A stretch of 32,277 nucleotides of DNA from contig QIAH01000384.1 in assembly GCA_003225465.1 (NCBI GenBank), positions 1 to 32,277 on the forward strand. The letters run 5' to 3'. Shown here in pieces: positions 344 through 5,628 of the stretch; positions within the stretch are counted from its first letter, which is position 1; every line of letters begins with the position of its first letter. The notes under the pieces are model-generated. The model was not told the DNA's origin. It did no database searches and was given only the letters and a program-made list of their open reading frames with translations. The position numbers were made by a program, and so were the translations under genes. Source of the DNA: Acidobacteriota bacterium. Lineage in GTDB: Bacteria > Acidobacteriota > Terriglobia > Terriglobales > Acidobacteriaceae.

Positions 344-1045
344 TCACTTGAGTTCTTCGGCAGTTCGCGCAATATTCTCTGGAGTTCCCATGTCGCGCCA
401 GGAATATTCATCCGCGCGGAAGGCTTGAATACTTTCTCCCGCCCCCGCCAGACGCAAATACGATGTGATGATGGAGAAAGCGCCATCTTCCGTGAGCATC
501 GACAGCAGACCCGCGGAGACCACATGAATGCCGGAAAAGGCGAATGCGCCGACCTCCGTCGCGGGCCGGCCGGCGCGGCGTCCGCAAAGTTGCATCTGCG
601 AATCGAAGAGCAAGTAACGCGAGGTGGATCGATCCTGAACCGCCAGGGTAACCAGCGCCTGCTGTGTCCGGTGGAATTCGACCATGCGGGCGAGGTCGAT
701 CGTGCTGAGCACGTCCACATTGTGCAGAATGAAGGGTTCCTCGGAATGATCCTCAAGAAAAAACCACGCCGCTTTCTTGAGTCCCCCACCGGTATCAAGC
801 AATACGTCTTCGCGTGAAATGGCAATCTCCATACCGAAGTCATCGTGCTCACGTAAGTAGTCCACCACCACGTCGGCGAAGTGGTGAACGTTAACGATCA
901 CATCGCGAATGCCGAAACTACGTAGTCGCATCAGAGTGAGTTCGAGCAGAGTGCGGCCTGCGACTTCGACCAGCGCCTTGGGGCGATCATTGGTAAGCGG
1001 GCGCAACCGCGTGCCGAGTCCAGCCGCCAGGACCATGGCTTTCAT
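344..1045 (-). CDS. Sugar-phosphate nucleotidyltransferase, MurU-like
   Basis: A 233-residue NTP-transferase-family enzyme. Such enzymes join a sugar 1-phosphate to a nucleotide. The N-terminus carries the signature loop GLGTRLRPLT (residues 8-17) and PKALVEV; NVDVL (about residue 107) fits the metal-binding Asp, and the protein ends near the conserved DMGTPENI. The ATG overlaps the stop of the upstream kinase gene by ATGA, showing translational coupling; an in-frame extension further upstream would lie inside that gene. With an anomeric sugar kinase next door, the best parallel is MurU of the AmgK-MurU route, which recycles MurNAc to UDP-MurNAc in the cytoplasm. Substrate choice (MurNAc, GlcNAc or another hexose) cannot be read from sequence. 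Confidence 0.85.
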   Translation of the reverse strand: MKAMVLAAGLGTRLRPLTNDRPKALVEVAGRTLLELTLMRLRSFGIRDVIVNVHHFADVVVDYLREHDDFGMEIAISREDVLLDTGGGLKKAAWFFLEDHSEEPFILHNVDVLSTIDLARMVEFHRTQQALVTLAVQDRSTSRYLLFDSQMQLCGRRAGRPATEVGAFAFSGIHVVSAGLLSMLTEDGAFSIITSYLRLAGAGESIQAFRADEYSWRDMGTPENIARTAEELK

Positions 1046-2499
1046 TCGGCGCGGCTCTCCAACTCGCGATGATGCAGAACCACGTCCACACCATTGCGCG
1101 CGCGCAGTCGCTTCGCCAGTTGCTCCGCCAGGTAGACTGAGCGATGTTGGCCGCCGGTGCATCCAAAAGCTACCATCAGGTGCTTGAATCCGCGGCGCTG
1201 GTATTCATAGATACTGGCGTCCACCAAGGACAGCGCGCTGGCAAAGAATTGGTGCACGCTCTCCTGCTGATTGAGGTATTCGATCACGGGCGCATCTCGT
1301 CCGGTGAGAGGTTTGAAGCGTTCCTCGCGCCCGGGGTTCGGCAAGCCGCGGCCATCGAAGACGAATCCTCCCCCGTTGCCTGTCTCGTCCTTCGGCCAGC
1401 CCCGGTGAAAGGAAAAGCTGAAGATCCGTACCGTGAGGTTTTCCGCACTCGAGGCAAGAGCTTGCAGCTTTTCGGATCCGAGCATGCTGTTGAAGGCGTC
1501 CAGCAGGGTTGGCAGCGCGATGGGCAGCTTCACATTGTGAAGAAGCCAGCGCAGGTTTTTCAGCGCGTAAGGAACGCTTTGCAGGAAATGCGCCTTGCGC
1601 TCATAGAAACCGCGGAATCCGTATGCGCCCAGCGCCTGCATAATGCGCACATAGACAAATCCGTAGTAGTAGCGGAGGAACGCATCCCGATCGACCGCCA
1701 TGAAGCGTGCCAATTGATCGAGGTAGTAGTCGAGCAAGTGTTGGCGTAGTTCGGGTGGAAGGTCAGCCTTGGCGTCATAGAGAAGGGAGGCGATGTCGTA
1801 TTGCAAGGCGCCTTTGCGGCCGCCCTGGTAGTCGACAAAGTAAGCATTGCCTTCGAGCAGCATGATATTGCGCGACTGGAAATCCCGGTAGAGGAAATAA
1901 TCCTGCGGCGCGCTGAGCAGAAGTTCGGTCAACGCCTCGAAATCATCTTCCAGCTTCTGCTCGCTGAAAGGGATTCCGGCGAGGCGAAGAAAGTAGTATT
2001 TGAAGTAGTTCAAGTCCCACGCAATCGACTGCCGGTCAAAACGTCCGCGCGGATAGCAGATGCTGTAGTCGAGATCGTGTCCCGCCTCCACCTGGAAGCG
2101 CGGCAGCACCGCGACTGCCTTGCGATAGGCGTCGATCACCGCCGGCGCAATGTTTTCCCCGGGACGATTGCTGGACAGAAAATCAAACAGCGTCGTGTTG
2201 CCGAGATCCTGTTCCAGGTAGGCGCCGCGATCCAGATCCTCTCCGTAAATTTCCGGCACGGGAAGGCCATGCTTCAGAAAATGCCGTGTGAAAGCGAGGA
2301 AGGCGGCGTTCTCCTCGCGAACGTCGTGCAGGATGCCGATGGCGCTCTGTTGCCCGTCGGAGAGGCGGATAATTTTGCGTCCCGAGCCGCCCAGTTCTCC
2401 CTGCAACTGGACTACACGCGTGGCCGGACGATGGAAATGCTGTTCGAAGAGGGCGTTGAGAACGTCCATATTTGTTTCGGGGCATGACAAAGATACCAT
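1042..2499 (-). CDS. Anomeric sugar kinase (AmgK-like) fused to a RapZ C-terminal domain
   Basis: A 485-residue two-domain protein. Residues about 10-330 form an aminoglycoside-phosphotransferase/AmgK-type kinase: LYRDFQSRN (203-211, catalytic Asp206 and Asn211) and FVDYQGG with metal-binding Asp223, followed by YDIASLLYD. Residues about 355-480 match the RapZ C-terminal domain, with FDGRGLPNP (381-389), a TGRD motif and FGCTGGQHRSVYLAEQL (445-461). The RapZ N-terminal P-loop ATPase half is absent. In Escherichia coli the RapZ C-terminal domain binds glucosamine 6-phosphate and GlmY/GlmZ RNA. The kinase probably phosphorylates MurNAc or GlcNAc at C1 for the coupled nucleotidyltransferase. Neither the ATG at 2499 nor the one at 2469 has a clear ribosome binding site, so the start is uncertain. 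Confidence 0.85.
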   Translation of the reverse strand: MVSLSCPETNMDVLNALFEQHFHRPATRVVQLQGELGGSGRKIIRLSDGQQSAIGILHDVREENAAFLAFTRHFLKHGLPVPEIYGEDLDRGAYLEQDLGNTTLFDFLSSNRPGENIAPAVIDAYRKAVAVLPRFQVEAGHDLDYSICYPRGRFDRQSIAWDLNYFKYYFLRLAGIPFSEQKLEDDFEALTELLLSAPQDYFLYRDFQSRNIMLLEGNAYFVDYQGGRKGALQYDIASLLYDAKADLPPELRQHLLDYYLDQLARFMAVDRDAFLRYYYGFVYVRIMQALGAYGFRGFYERKAHFLQSVPYALKNLRWLLHNVKLPIALPTLLDAFNSMLGSEKLQALASSAENLTVRIFSFSFHRGWPKDETGNGGGFVFDGRGLPNPGREERFKPLTGRDAPVIEYLNQQESVHQFFASALSLVDASIYEYQRRGFKHLMVAFGCTGGQHRSVYLAEQLAKRLRARNGVDVVLHHRELESRAE

Positions 2500-2640: not shown

Positions 2641-3084
2641 ATGGAAGTCATCATCGAACATCTGGGTGCAGTGCAGTTCGAAATCAAGGCGCGCGGGCAC
2701 GCCATTGTTTCTGATCAGCCGCGTGAGAACGGCGGGTTTGACGAAGGCATGACTCCGCCCGAGCTGTTGCTTGCGTCGTTGGGATCGTGCGCAGCTTTTT
2801 ACGCCGCACAATATTTACGCAAGCACAAACTGGCCACGGAAGGCACTCGGGTGCGCGTGACCGCAGAGAAGGAAAAGAATCCGCCGCGTATTGCTCGCTT
2901 TCATGTCGAGGTTGACATGCCGGCTGCGCTGGATGACACACATCGCGCGGGAGTCGAGGATGCGGTGCACGCTTGCCTTATCCACAATACGCTGCAGCAC
3001 TCACCAGAGATTCATTTCGAATTCAAGTGCGGGACGGACACTTTTGTCGGAGAAACTTCGGCCGCATCCTCGAATCCTCGCTAA
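2641..3084 (+). CDS. OsmC/Ohr-family protein
   Basis: A 147-residue OsmC-family protein. Family members are cytosolic dimers that reduce organic hydroperoxides through two cysteines. Both expected cysteines are visible: GSCAAFYAAQYL (residues about 47-58) at the start of the central helix and HACLIHNTL (about 109-117). TPPELLLASLGSC is the classic OsmC run-in. The start is supported by GGAGGT 4 nt upstream. It resembles the shorter YhfA/OsmC-like branch more than Ohr, so a true peroxidase role is an inference. It stands alone, divergent from the AmgK-RapZ gene. Confidence 0.85.
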   Translation: MEVIIEHLGAVQFEIKARGHAIVSDQPRENGGFDEGMTPPELLLASLGSCAAFYAAQYLRKHKLATEGTRVRVTAEKEKNPPRIARFHVEVDMPAALDDTHRAGVEDAVHACLIHNTLQHSPEIHFEFKCGTDTFVGETSAASSNPR

Positions 3085-3213
3085 GTGCGGACCGCCGGGT
3101 TCGGATTCAGCCCCACCGGACATGTCCGGTTGCTATCTGGTCATTGACCTTTCTCCCTCCTAGACTGGAACTCTCCCCTCAGGGAACTTTAGATTCCTGC
3201 TAAGTTGTTGATT

Positions 3214-3816
3214 TTAGGCCTTCCAGCGATATGCGTCGGGCTGCGGCAGCCCCAGATGGGCGAGTACCCGGTAAGCAAATTCGCGAGCCAGATCATCTAA
3301 CGAAGTGGGGCGATTGTAGAAGGTCGGGATGAGGGGGAAGACGGTAGCTCCGGCATCGGCGGCTTTGTACATGTTGCGGATGTGGACCTTATGCAGCGGG
3401 GTCTCGCGCACGCAGAGCACCAGCGGCCTTCGTTCTTTGAGACTTACGTCGGCGGCGCGCTCGATCAGGTGTGAGGCGATGCCGTTGGCAATGCGTGCGA
3501 GCGTACCAACGCTGCAGGGGATGACGACCATCCCATCGGAAGGGTAAGAACCACTGGCCACGTTGGCGCCGATGTCGCTGTTGGCCTGGGAATGGATTTT
3601 GGTGCTGGGCTTGCCCAGCAACTGTCCGACAACATCGTTGCGGCCGCGCAGGCCGAGTTCTTCGGCAAGCACGCGCAGGCCACTGTCGGAGGCGATGAAG
3701 TTCACGGTCTGGATGCGCGCATCGCGTTCGGCCGCAAGTAGAAAGTGTTTGAGAAAAATCGAGCCGCTGGCGCCGGTGGTCGCAACCGTAAGGTTCTGGA
3801 GCGGCTGGTTGGGCAA
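3214..3816 (-). CDS. ubiX: Flavin prenyltransferase, UbiX family
   Basis: A 200-residue UbiX/Pad1 flavoprotein. This family joins dimethylallyl phosphate to FMN to make prenylated FMN, the cofactor of UbiD decarboxylases. Family motifs are clear: TTGASGS at the N-terminus (FMN binding), SDSG, PCSVGTLARIANGIASHLIERAADVSLKERRPLVL, RETPLHKVHIRNM, and a C-terminal PTFYNRP. I prefer the TTG start at 3816: AAGGAG (3822-3827) is 5 nt upstream and it gives the usual length. A longer form from an ATG at 3879 adds 21 unconserved residues and has no ribosome binding site. No ubiD partner is in the window. It is divergent from the ChaN-like gene. Confidence 0.88.
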   Translation of the reverse strand: MPNQPLQNLTVATTGASGSIFLKHFLLAAERDARIQTVNFIASDSGLRVLAEELGLRGRNDVVGQLLGKPSTKIHSQANSDIGANVASGSYPSDGMVVIPCSVGTLARIANGIASHLIERAADVSLKERRPLVLCVRETPLHKVHIRNMYKAADAGATVFPLIPTFYNRPTSLDDLAREFAYRVLAHLGLPQPDAYRWKA

Positions 3817-3930
3817 AGGATCTCCTTGGGCGGTGGCCCTGGAGTTCCGAGCATAGGGAGGCTGCTGAAGGGAAGTCAAGGCAGGGCGGGCAAAACCGCT
3901 TTGCCGGATCGATGACTTCCCGCACTGGAA

Positions 3931-5628
3931 ATGGCGAATCCGTCACACCTGCGATCGCGACGCTCCGCAGCGCAATTGCATGCTCTCGAAGGAGTCGAGC
4001 GCGAAATCCGCGCCAACGATCACAATGGCCGGCGAAAGTATTTGAAAGACTTTAGCGCCGCCTACCGGACCTACGAGTCTGTGGTGGATGTTTCCCGCGT
4101 GCATGAGGCGGTCGGTGGGGCTGATTTGGTGCTGATCGGCGATTACCATGCGCTGCCCGCCTGCCAGCGTTTCGCGGGTTCGCTTCTGGAGCAGCAGGCG
4201 ATCGCTGGAGATCGTCCGCTGGTTCTGGGAGTGGAAACGATCTTCGCGCGCGATCAACACATCCTGGACGAATGGTGGCGACGGGAAATCGACGAGACCG
4301 AACTCCACGAGCGCATGCGTTTCCAGCTGGATTGGGGCTACGACTGGGATCCTTTCTACGAACTGCTCGTCACCGCCCGGGAGCACAGTGAAGCAATCTA
4401 TGGTCTCGATTGCATGCCGCGCGAGGACCTGCGCAAAATCGGGGCGCGCGACCGGCATGCCGCGGAAAAACTTGCTGAGATTCGGTCGCGGCATCCCGAC
4501 GCGGTCATCGTAGTGCTGTTTGGCGAATCGCATCTGGCGCCCGCTCACCTGCCGCGCGAAGTGCGCACCCTTCTGCCTCAGGAGCGCATGCTGACTGTTC
4601 TGCAGAATGTGGATGCGCTGTACTGGCGCGCCGCAGGAGAGCGACACGAGCGGGTGGAAGCGGTGCAGGTCGCGCCTGACGTGATCTGCGTTTTCAATGC
4701 AACGCCGCTTGAAAAGTACGAGAACTATCGTCTTTGCCTGGATCGCTGGCGACGGGAGGAATCCGATCAGCCCGATCTCGGACCTACCGTTTACAACCTC
4801 ATCGATGGCTTGGTGCGCTTTTTCGGGATCAATCGCTATTCGCCGCACAATACGACGCAACCAAAGTTTCTCGTCGACCTGTTGCCGGAAGTGTATTACC
4901 GCTCGTCCGACGGACTGCTGCGGCGTCTCCTGTCGCGCAAAGGAGTGAGTGAGGAGGAGCGCGAGGCGATGATGCAGCGGGTGGAAGAACGCGGCTGCGC
5001 TTATTTGCCGCAGGTCAACGCGTTCTACATGCACGATTTTCAAATGCTGCACGCTTCCGAAGAGGCGGCTCGCTTCCTGCATCACGCTTGCCGCGGATTA
5101 CCAGCGAGGGTGACCGCGCGGGAAGAAGCCGCCGATGAACCCTCGGATTTCTTCTACGGTCGCGTGCTGGAGAACGCGCTGGCGTACTTTGGGTCGCGTG
5201 TGTTGTACCCCGCGCGCGCGGCGGTGCGCGAAGAAGACCTGCGCGAGTTGAGCGACCAGACTCGCGAAGACATTGAGCGGCAGACGGGACTCGGGTTTGC
5301 CGAGTCGATGCGCGCGCTCGATTTTCTGCTGTTGCACCGGCTACTGGAACTCGACGTCAAACAGTACGATCGGGTGCGCGGATCACTCGACGAAGGGATT
5401 CGTAGCAGCGGAGCCAAGTTCGAATACATCACGCAGCAACTTGGGTATCTCCTGGGCTGTGATCTTTATGACGGATACCTGGAAGGCCGGGTAACTCCCG
5501 GTTTTGTGCGGACTCTGTTTCTTACTCACGTAGAAGAACCCGGCGCTGCCCGGGATGCCTATTTTGGACTGGTGCAACGCCTCCGCGCTGTGCGGAGAAG
5601 AGGGCATCGATTCGAAAAGCGGACGTGA
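3931..5628 (+). CDS. ChaN-like (haem-binding fold) protein with a long C-terminal region
   Basis: A 565-residue cytosolic-looking protein with no signal peptide. Residues about 55-235 match the ChaN/DUF399 fold, related to TIKI/TraB and erythromycin-esterase proteins: GDYHALPACQRF (71-82), LGVETIF, and FGESHLAPAHLP with the paired Glu/His. ChaN itself is an iron-regulated haem-binding lipoprotein, but this protein has neither a lipobox nor export signals. Residues about 240-565 have no domain I recognise; they are rich in charged helices. The ATG at 3931 lacks a clear ribosome binding site. The biochemical role is unknown. Confidence 0.7.
   Translation: MANPSHLRSRRSAAQLHALEGVEREIRANDHNGRRKYLKDFSAAYRTYESVVDVSRVHEAVGGADLVLIGDYHALPACQRFAGSLLEQQAIAGDRPLVLGVETIFARDQHILDEWWRREIDETELHERMRFQLDWGYDWDPFYELLVTAREHSEAIYGLDCMPREDLRKIGARDRHAAEKLAEIRSRHPDAVIVVLFGESHLAPAHLPREVRTLLPQERMLTVLQNVDALYWRAAGERHERVEAVQVAPDVICVFNATPLEKYENYRLCLDRWRREESDQPDLGPTVYNLIDGLVRFFGINRYSPHNTTQPKFLVDLLPEVYYRSSDGLLRRLLSRKGVSEEEREAMMQRVEERGCAYLPQVNAFYMHDFQMLHASEEAARFLHHACRGLPARVTAREEAADEPSDFFYGRVLENALAYFGSRVLYPARAAVREEDLRELSDQTREDIERQTGLGFAESMRALDFLLLHRLLELDVKQYDRVRGSLDEGIRSSGAKFEYITQQLGYLLGCDLYDGYLEGRVTPGFVRTLFLTHVEEPGAARDAYFGLVQRLRAVRRRGHRFEKRT

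Follow-up and report, generated by a model that had tools for sequence, protein, structure and literature searches.

Why does an AmgK-like sugar kinase carry the C-terminal domain of RapZ? The question is raised by two overlapping genes in the window (the whole stretch of 32,277 nucleotides that was analysed, from a genome of the Acidobacteriota), the first of which encodes the kinase with the RapZ-type domain at its C-terminal end and the second a MurU-like nucleotidyltransferase (Table 1). The C-terminal domain (CTD) of E. coli RapZ alone binds glucosamine-6-phosphate (GlcN6P) (PMC7073468), and for this reason a sensor is the default reading of the fused copy; a preliminary description of the locus had taken this view and proposed allosteric control of cell-wall recycling by a sensor built into the kinase.

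Both parts of the protein that had been proposed were recovered in the Pfam, NCBIfam and PDB searches. The kinase region matches the Pfam APH family (E 4.6e-13; 49.9 bits against a cut-off of 23.2), and the C-terminal segment, whose failure to align with RapZ-CTD profiles had been named as a possible refutation, matches PF22740 over nearly its whole length (profile positions 2-121 of 121; E 4.5e-36), with 124.1 bits against a gathering cut-off of 27. The NCBIfam RapZ model aligns at model positions 151-278 only, which is its C-terminal half, and the protein has no P-loop half (PF03668). The PDB sequence matches were 5o5s, the CTD of E. coli RapZ, and the AmgK-like 3csv, which was also the best Foldseek match of the modelled kinase region. 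Structure prediction with AlphaFold, which had been suggested at the outset, modelled both domains with confidence (pLDDT 90.0 and pTM 0.71 for the full-length protein; pLDDT 92.5 for the RapZ-type domain modelled alone), and the model of the fused domain superposed on 5o5s with a Z of 20.1 and an rmsd of 1.5 over 123 residues, at 42% identity. The fusion recurs in 112 orthologs that were aligned, drawn from at least eight phyla, and is thereby confirmed as genuine and not a product of chance.

The annotated ATG of the fusion gene lies at 2499; most ortholog alignments begin at residue 10-11, and hence the ATG at 2469 (Met11) is the likelier start of the protein. The neighbours in the window at 2641-5625 are an OsmC-like gene (+), a Flavoprotein-family gene (-) and a gene for a ChaN-like haem-binding domain protein (+), and no connection to cell-wall recycling was seen for these.

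Table 1. Positions of the features of the fusion gene and its partner in the window (residues refer to the fusion protein unless given as a length)
Feature	Residues	Position	Strand	Basis
MurU-like nucleotidyltransferase, downstream in operon	233 aa	344..1045	(-)	NCBIfam and PDB matches
ATGA stop/start overlap of the two genes		1042..1045	(-)	sequence
Fusion gene, AmgK-like kinase and RapZ C-terminal domain	485 aa	1042..2499	(-)	ORF and domain matches
Kinase region	11-346	1462..2469	(-)	Pfam, PDB and Foldseek matches
Pfam APH core	61-264	1708-2319	(-)	
Kinase catalytic loop YRDFQSRNIML	204-214	1858..1890	(-)	ortholog conservation
Metal-binding segment FVDYQGG	221-227	1819..1839	(-)	ortholog conservation
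RapZ C-terminal domain PF22740	356-481	1057..1434	(-)	Pfam profile and model superposition
GxGGG insertion, just before the RapZ dimer strand	374-378	1366..1380	(-)	alignment
N-P-G-R (His190 -> Gly, Trp191 -> Arg)	388-391	1327..1338	(-)	
Phosphate loop CTGGQHRS, form C-X5-R-S	447-454	1138..1161	(-)	alignment

The kinase region has the APH fold together with the catalytic aspartate D206 and the metal-binding aspartate D223. Among the orthologs, the residues R205 to N211 are 99-100% conserved and D223 is conserved in 99%. The best NCBIfam kinase models for the fusion protein are both AmgK equivalogs (NF045698 and NF045759), whose cut-offs it misses with 49.8 against 500 and 43.4 against 550 bits, that is, at about a tenth of the score required. 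The partner protein finds its best family match, over its full length, in MurU (NF045761), at 125.8 bits and thus about half of the curated cut-off of 250; its best PDB match is 4y7t ('Nucleotidyl transferase') and the second 8hhd, an N-acetylmuramate alpha-1-phosphate uridylyltransferase. As these scores lie well under the equivalog cut-offs, the two proteins are by homology relatives of AmgK and MurU rather than proven members of either family, and the substrate of the nucleotidyltransferase is putative. The kinase resembles AmgK, the MurNAc/GlcNAc anomeric kinase of Pseudomonas, also in that its gene stands directly before a MurU-like gene; it differs in the extra RapZ domain, which lies past the AmgK-matched region.

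The coupling to a MurU-like nucleotidyltransferase, first seen in the ATGA overlap of the window, was borne out across the family. A codirectional nucleotidyltransferase gene adjoins the fusion gene in 102 of 115 loci, the distance being within 100 bases in 97 of the paired loci and the same 4-base overlap being present in 70. No adjacent nucleotidyltransferase was recognised in the other 13, some of which are contig ends, and nine of the ten carriers searched that have no adjacent copy possess a homolog elsewhere in the genome. The other neighbours of the fusion gene were not conserved across phyla. In three loci of Acidobacteriota (L041, L042 and L054), murQ and murA lie divergently beside it, so that genes for the salvage and the synthesis of peptidoglycan are clustered there.

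It had been supposed that similar fusions may exist in databases. The architecture can indeed be read from Pfam, and the searches found it in the Acidobacteriota and the Bacteroidota, as well as in further phyla. GTDB genomes were scanned and yielded at least 585 related stretches; the 80 that were kept belong to the Acidobacteriota, Bacteroidota, Ignavibacteriota, Calditrichota, KSB1, Neomarinimicrobiota (Fidelibacterota), Elusimicrobiota and Verrucomicrobiota (Opitutia), with one MAG labelled Deferribacteres; cultured carriers include Draconibacterium orientale and Mariniphaga anaerophila. Within the phylum of the window, the distribution is patchy: 46 of the 150 relatives searched carry the fusion, a count that takes in one genome with the kinase part only (G113, see below), and it is found in just 10 of 396 genomes drawn evenly across the phylum. 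No paper on the fusion was found in the open-access literature, nor one naming both RapZ and AmgK, and RapZ and Bacteroidetes were found mentioned together only in a review of RNA degradation. The family has apparently never been studied, and is a genuine and widely conserved variant of the AmgK-MurU pair.

A tree was calculated from 57 fused and 22 canonical RapZ domains, the latter including canonical domains from the same genomes of Acidobacteriota and Elusimicrobiota, and the fused domains formed one clade apart from the canonical ones (support 100/99). The simplest reading is a single ancient fusion event; the fused domain is not a local RapZ in decay. The earlier statement that the P-loop half had been lost is thus right as to the absence of PF03668, but does not hold as a recent decay of RapZ, the fused domain being an ancient separate lineage. 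Ordinary RapZ is also present in most of the fusion-carrying Acidobacteriota; unlike these relatives, the genome of the window gave no ordinary RapZ (PF03668) in the profile search, and either a true loss or a gap in the assembly of 590 contigs may account for this. Among 41 carriers beyond the close relatives, nine also have an ordinary RapZ, and in 32 the fused domain is the sole RapZ_C.

Some oddities met in the collection were set aside. In G004, G051 and G076 the apparently split gene is a single open frame that was matched in two pieces, and in G080 a contig break explains the split. A triple fusion of kinase, RapZ domain and nucleotidyltransferase (L084:3935-5893) is garbled after CTGG and is probably an assembly frameshift, and the long N-terminal extension of L110 (a 963-aa frame) has no Pfam family match and looks like a read-through frame.

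The residues of the fused domain were compared between the 112 fusions, E. coli RapZ and 12 canonical domains of Acidobacteriota, and are given here in E. coli numbering. It was found that C247, T248, G249, G250, H252, R253, S254 and H276 are invariant in fused and canonical domains alike; their equivalents in the window protein, C447, T448, G449, G450, H452, R453, S454 and H477, are essentially invariant across eight phyla. The CTGGxHRS loop, with its C-X5-R-S form, is present in 22 of 22 canonical domains and in 111 of the 112 fusions, the one row in which it was not recognised being probably a cut-short sequence, and the chance expectation from composition is 0.016 per domain. F181 and D182 of the dimer strand, which are needed for dimerisation of the RapZ-CTD (PMC5737377), are conserved in 100% of the fusions.

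The pocket has changed in other respects. Of the set H190, T248, G249, H252 and R253, four of five residues are kept; the position of His190, a pocket residue essential for the function of E. coli RapZ (PMC9841335), is occupied by Gly in all 112 fusions and by H/N in the canonical rows. The position of Trp191 is Arg (95%) or Lys (5%) in the fusions and F/Y in the canonical rows, N236 is replaced by Arg (97%), and the GxGGG insertion (G374 and G376-G378 in 100% of the 112 fusions) is absent from the canonical RapZ rows. Among the RNA contacts, R238 is replaced by Phe (100%), K251 by Gln (90%), K270 by Val/Ile/Leu and R211 mostly by Gln, and the basic RNA-binding C-terminal tail (KRK) is missing. 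The alignment thus indicates a phosphate-binding loop under strong constraint, an RNA surface that is mostly gone and a ligand pocket that has been remodelled. Hence, although the phosphate loop is kept, the idea of a GlcN6P sensor is weakened by the Gly at position 190, the Arg/Lys at 191 and the added GxGGG. Because of these three changes the same ligand as in E. coli RapZ cannot be assumed, and that of the fused domain may differ from GlcN6P. A role as a GlcN6P sensor is possible, and control of the kinase by the domain through an allosteric effect is plausible.

In beta- and gammaproteobacteria, either MurQ or AmgK-MurU is found (PMC5371407), and recycling by way of AmgK and MurU would lead one to expect that MurQ is missing more often among the carriers. 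MurQ is missing from 12 of 46 carriers against 7 of 104 non-carriers (p 0.0024), from 10 of 37 against 4 of 77 when only genomes at least 90% complete are taken (p 0.0017), and from 4 of 26 against 0 of 43 within the family of the window (p 0.017). With genus g92 counted once the p value for the genomes at least 90% complete is 0.063, and the genomes are related to each other, so the more frequent lack of MurQ in carriers is suggestive only. Many carriers, and the genome of the window with them, keep MurQ, so the AmgK-MurU route and MurQ do not always exclude each other. The pair is therefore like the MupP-AmgK-MurU pathway of Pseudomonas (PMC5371407) in its AmgK-like and MurU-like members and its association with MurQ absence, and unlike it in the fusion of the kinase to a RapZ domain and in the retention of MurQ by many carriers.

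The absence of AnmK does not differ (6 of 46 carriers against 13 of 104 non-carriers) and so supports neither a sensor nor an enzyme as the function of the fused domain. Eleven MurQ-negative carriers have AnmK, and for the route to operate in these a MurNAc-6-phosphatase would be required. The search for AnmK was negative in all seven f4 members examined (G105, G113, G120, G127, G133, G139 and G145); MurQ is present in most f4 members. The domain is kept without AnmK in the f4 carriers G105, G120, G127, G133 and G145, and without both AnmK and MurQ in G160, G166 and G179, although these absences may come partly from incomplete assembly. In the Acidobacteriota loci L134 (G000:C406, from the genome of the window), L132 and L136, anmK lies directly beside a NagZ-like GH3 gene and near a mutS-like gene; the identity of NagZ and AnmK was tested in L134 and read from sequence starts in the other two.

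A natural loss of the domain was seen in one carrier relative only, G113 (99% complete), and it is a clean one (L130:850-1950; G113:C70). Its kinase of 366 aa is 66% identical and has intact catalytic motifs, the kinase ORF is followed by an overlapping MurU-like gene, and the RapZ found elsewhere in the genome is canonical only. Since kinase and MurU-like gene are kept there without the domain, regulation by the domain is dispensable in this organism. Neither AnmK nor MurQ was found in G113, which fits a domain acting on MurNAc-6P, though one natural deletion is not decisive.

The explanation that we prefer, and to which we give about an even chance, is a salvage kinase with a ligand-responsive dimer domain. 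The two genes would then provide the final two enzymes of an anabolic salvage route for MurNAc and possibly GlcNAc, in which an AmgK-type anomeric kinase would form the sugar 1-phosphate, to be converted to the UDP-sugar by a MurU-type enzyme, the substrates and reactions of both being those suggested by homology. The fixed RapZ-derived module most likely dimerises the kinase; its remodelled pocket would hold a phosphorylated amino-sugar or a related anionic ligand, which would set kinase activity by precursor supply. The architecture, its conservation, the operon coupling, the kept and changed pocket residues and the folds of both domains are established; the regulatory role of the pocket and the identity of its ligand are inferences. 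The domain matches and folds, the kinase residues, the operon coupling, the AnmK, MurQ and NagZ-like genes in the genome of the window, the MurQ statistics, the murQ and murA neighbours, the binding of GlcN6P by the CTD of E. coli RapZ, the phosphate loop and the pair F181 and D182 count in favour of this explanation, and the AmgK and MurU scores below cut-off, the invariant H190G, G113 and the retention of MurQ in many carriers count against it.

The conserved F181 and D182, and the fact that the RapZ-CTD dimerises by itself (PMC5737377), would also suit a purely structural dimerisation module, whose anion pocket is vestigial and serves no ligand. Drift would be expected in such a pocket, but the loop residues and H477 of the window protein are essentially invariant, and G390, R391 and GxGGG have been added as new invariant positions; furthermore, provided that its gene works, G113 manages with no such domain. 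This explanation is considered unlikely.

C-X5-R-S is the signature of cysteine phosphatases (C-X5-R-[ST] in general form), and in the RapZ-type domain, as in PTP and LMW-PTP, the loop follows a strand and precedes a helix; in RapZ, phosphate or sulfate is bound by backbone and Arg. To our knowledge, no phosphatase activity has been described for a domain of this type. The fused domain might nevertheless be a cysteine-dependent phosphatase that converts MurNAc-6P to MurNAc for C1 phosphorylation by the attached kinase; the fusion protein would then combine the MupP and AmgK steps, with MurU as the next. Apart from the occurrence of the loop in nearly all fusions and all canonical domains, far above its chance expectation, it was reported that RapZ activity is abolished by C247A and C247S, a catalytic -SH being suggested, and that a likely chemically transformed GlcN6P product is seen in the RapZ pocket (Islam et al. 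2022, PMC9841335). The MurQ-negative, AnmK-positive carriers, with their conditional need for a MurNAc-6P phosphatase, and the loss of the domain in G113, where AnmK and MurQ were not found, point in the same direction. However, all RapZ variants tested by pull-down also failed in RNA binding (PMC9841335), which gives a non-catalytic explanation of the cysteine mutants. The domain is kept in the f4 members without AnmK and in the three genomes without AnmK and MurQ, other phosphatases, above all of the HAD type, could serve the same step, and no general acid was identified. A search of the PDB with a profile of the CTD alignment found only RapZ, even at E 10, and no PTP or LMW-PTP structure is among the Foldseek or VIA matches listed, where phosphofructokinase follows as the next group (Z about 6), a similarity already published for RapZ (PMC5737377); absence from these lists is compatible with a fold of the PTP, DSP or LMW-PTP type. 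A phosphatase role of the fused domain is considered unlikely. Slightly less likely again is its general form, in which the RapZ CTD as such is a cysteine-dependent sugar phosphatase and the two overlapping genes make up a complete MupP-AmgK-MurU pathway; if true, the GlcN6P sensor in RapZ itself would be a former or present phosphatase.

The kinase and the nucleotidyltransferase might also act on another sugar, such as mannose, galactosamine or a capsule sugar, in keeping with the modest AmgK and MurU scores, the nearness of mannose-1-phosphate guanylyltransferase models to MurU in the partner's matches (103 against 126 bits) and the lack of other neighbours conserved across phyla. Against this, two methods agreed on the MurU type as the top nucleotidyltransferase match, murQ and murA adjoin the fusion gene in three loci, and MurQ absence is associated with fusion genes, which makes another sugar improbable. 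That the fused domain binds RNA and the kinase is an RNA regulator like RapZ is very improbable, since, for all that the domain family is the same and the pocket of E. coli RapZ contacts RNA (PMC9841335), R238, K251, K270 and R211 are replaced, the basic tail is missing and H190 is Gly.

A RapZ-type pocket in a cell-wall salvage kinase, as in the preferred explanation, would link the sensing of amino-sugars directly to enzyme activity and not to a small RNA, and would show the RapZ domain at work without RNA. The fusion also lends itself to experiments on the role of the invariant cysteine and the pocket of RapZ, for which catalysis would serve as the readout. In Pseudomonas, AmgK-MurU recycling leads to intrinsic fosfomycin resistance (PMC5371407), and for this reason the organisms that carry the fusion may likewise be resistant to fosfomycin.
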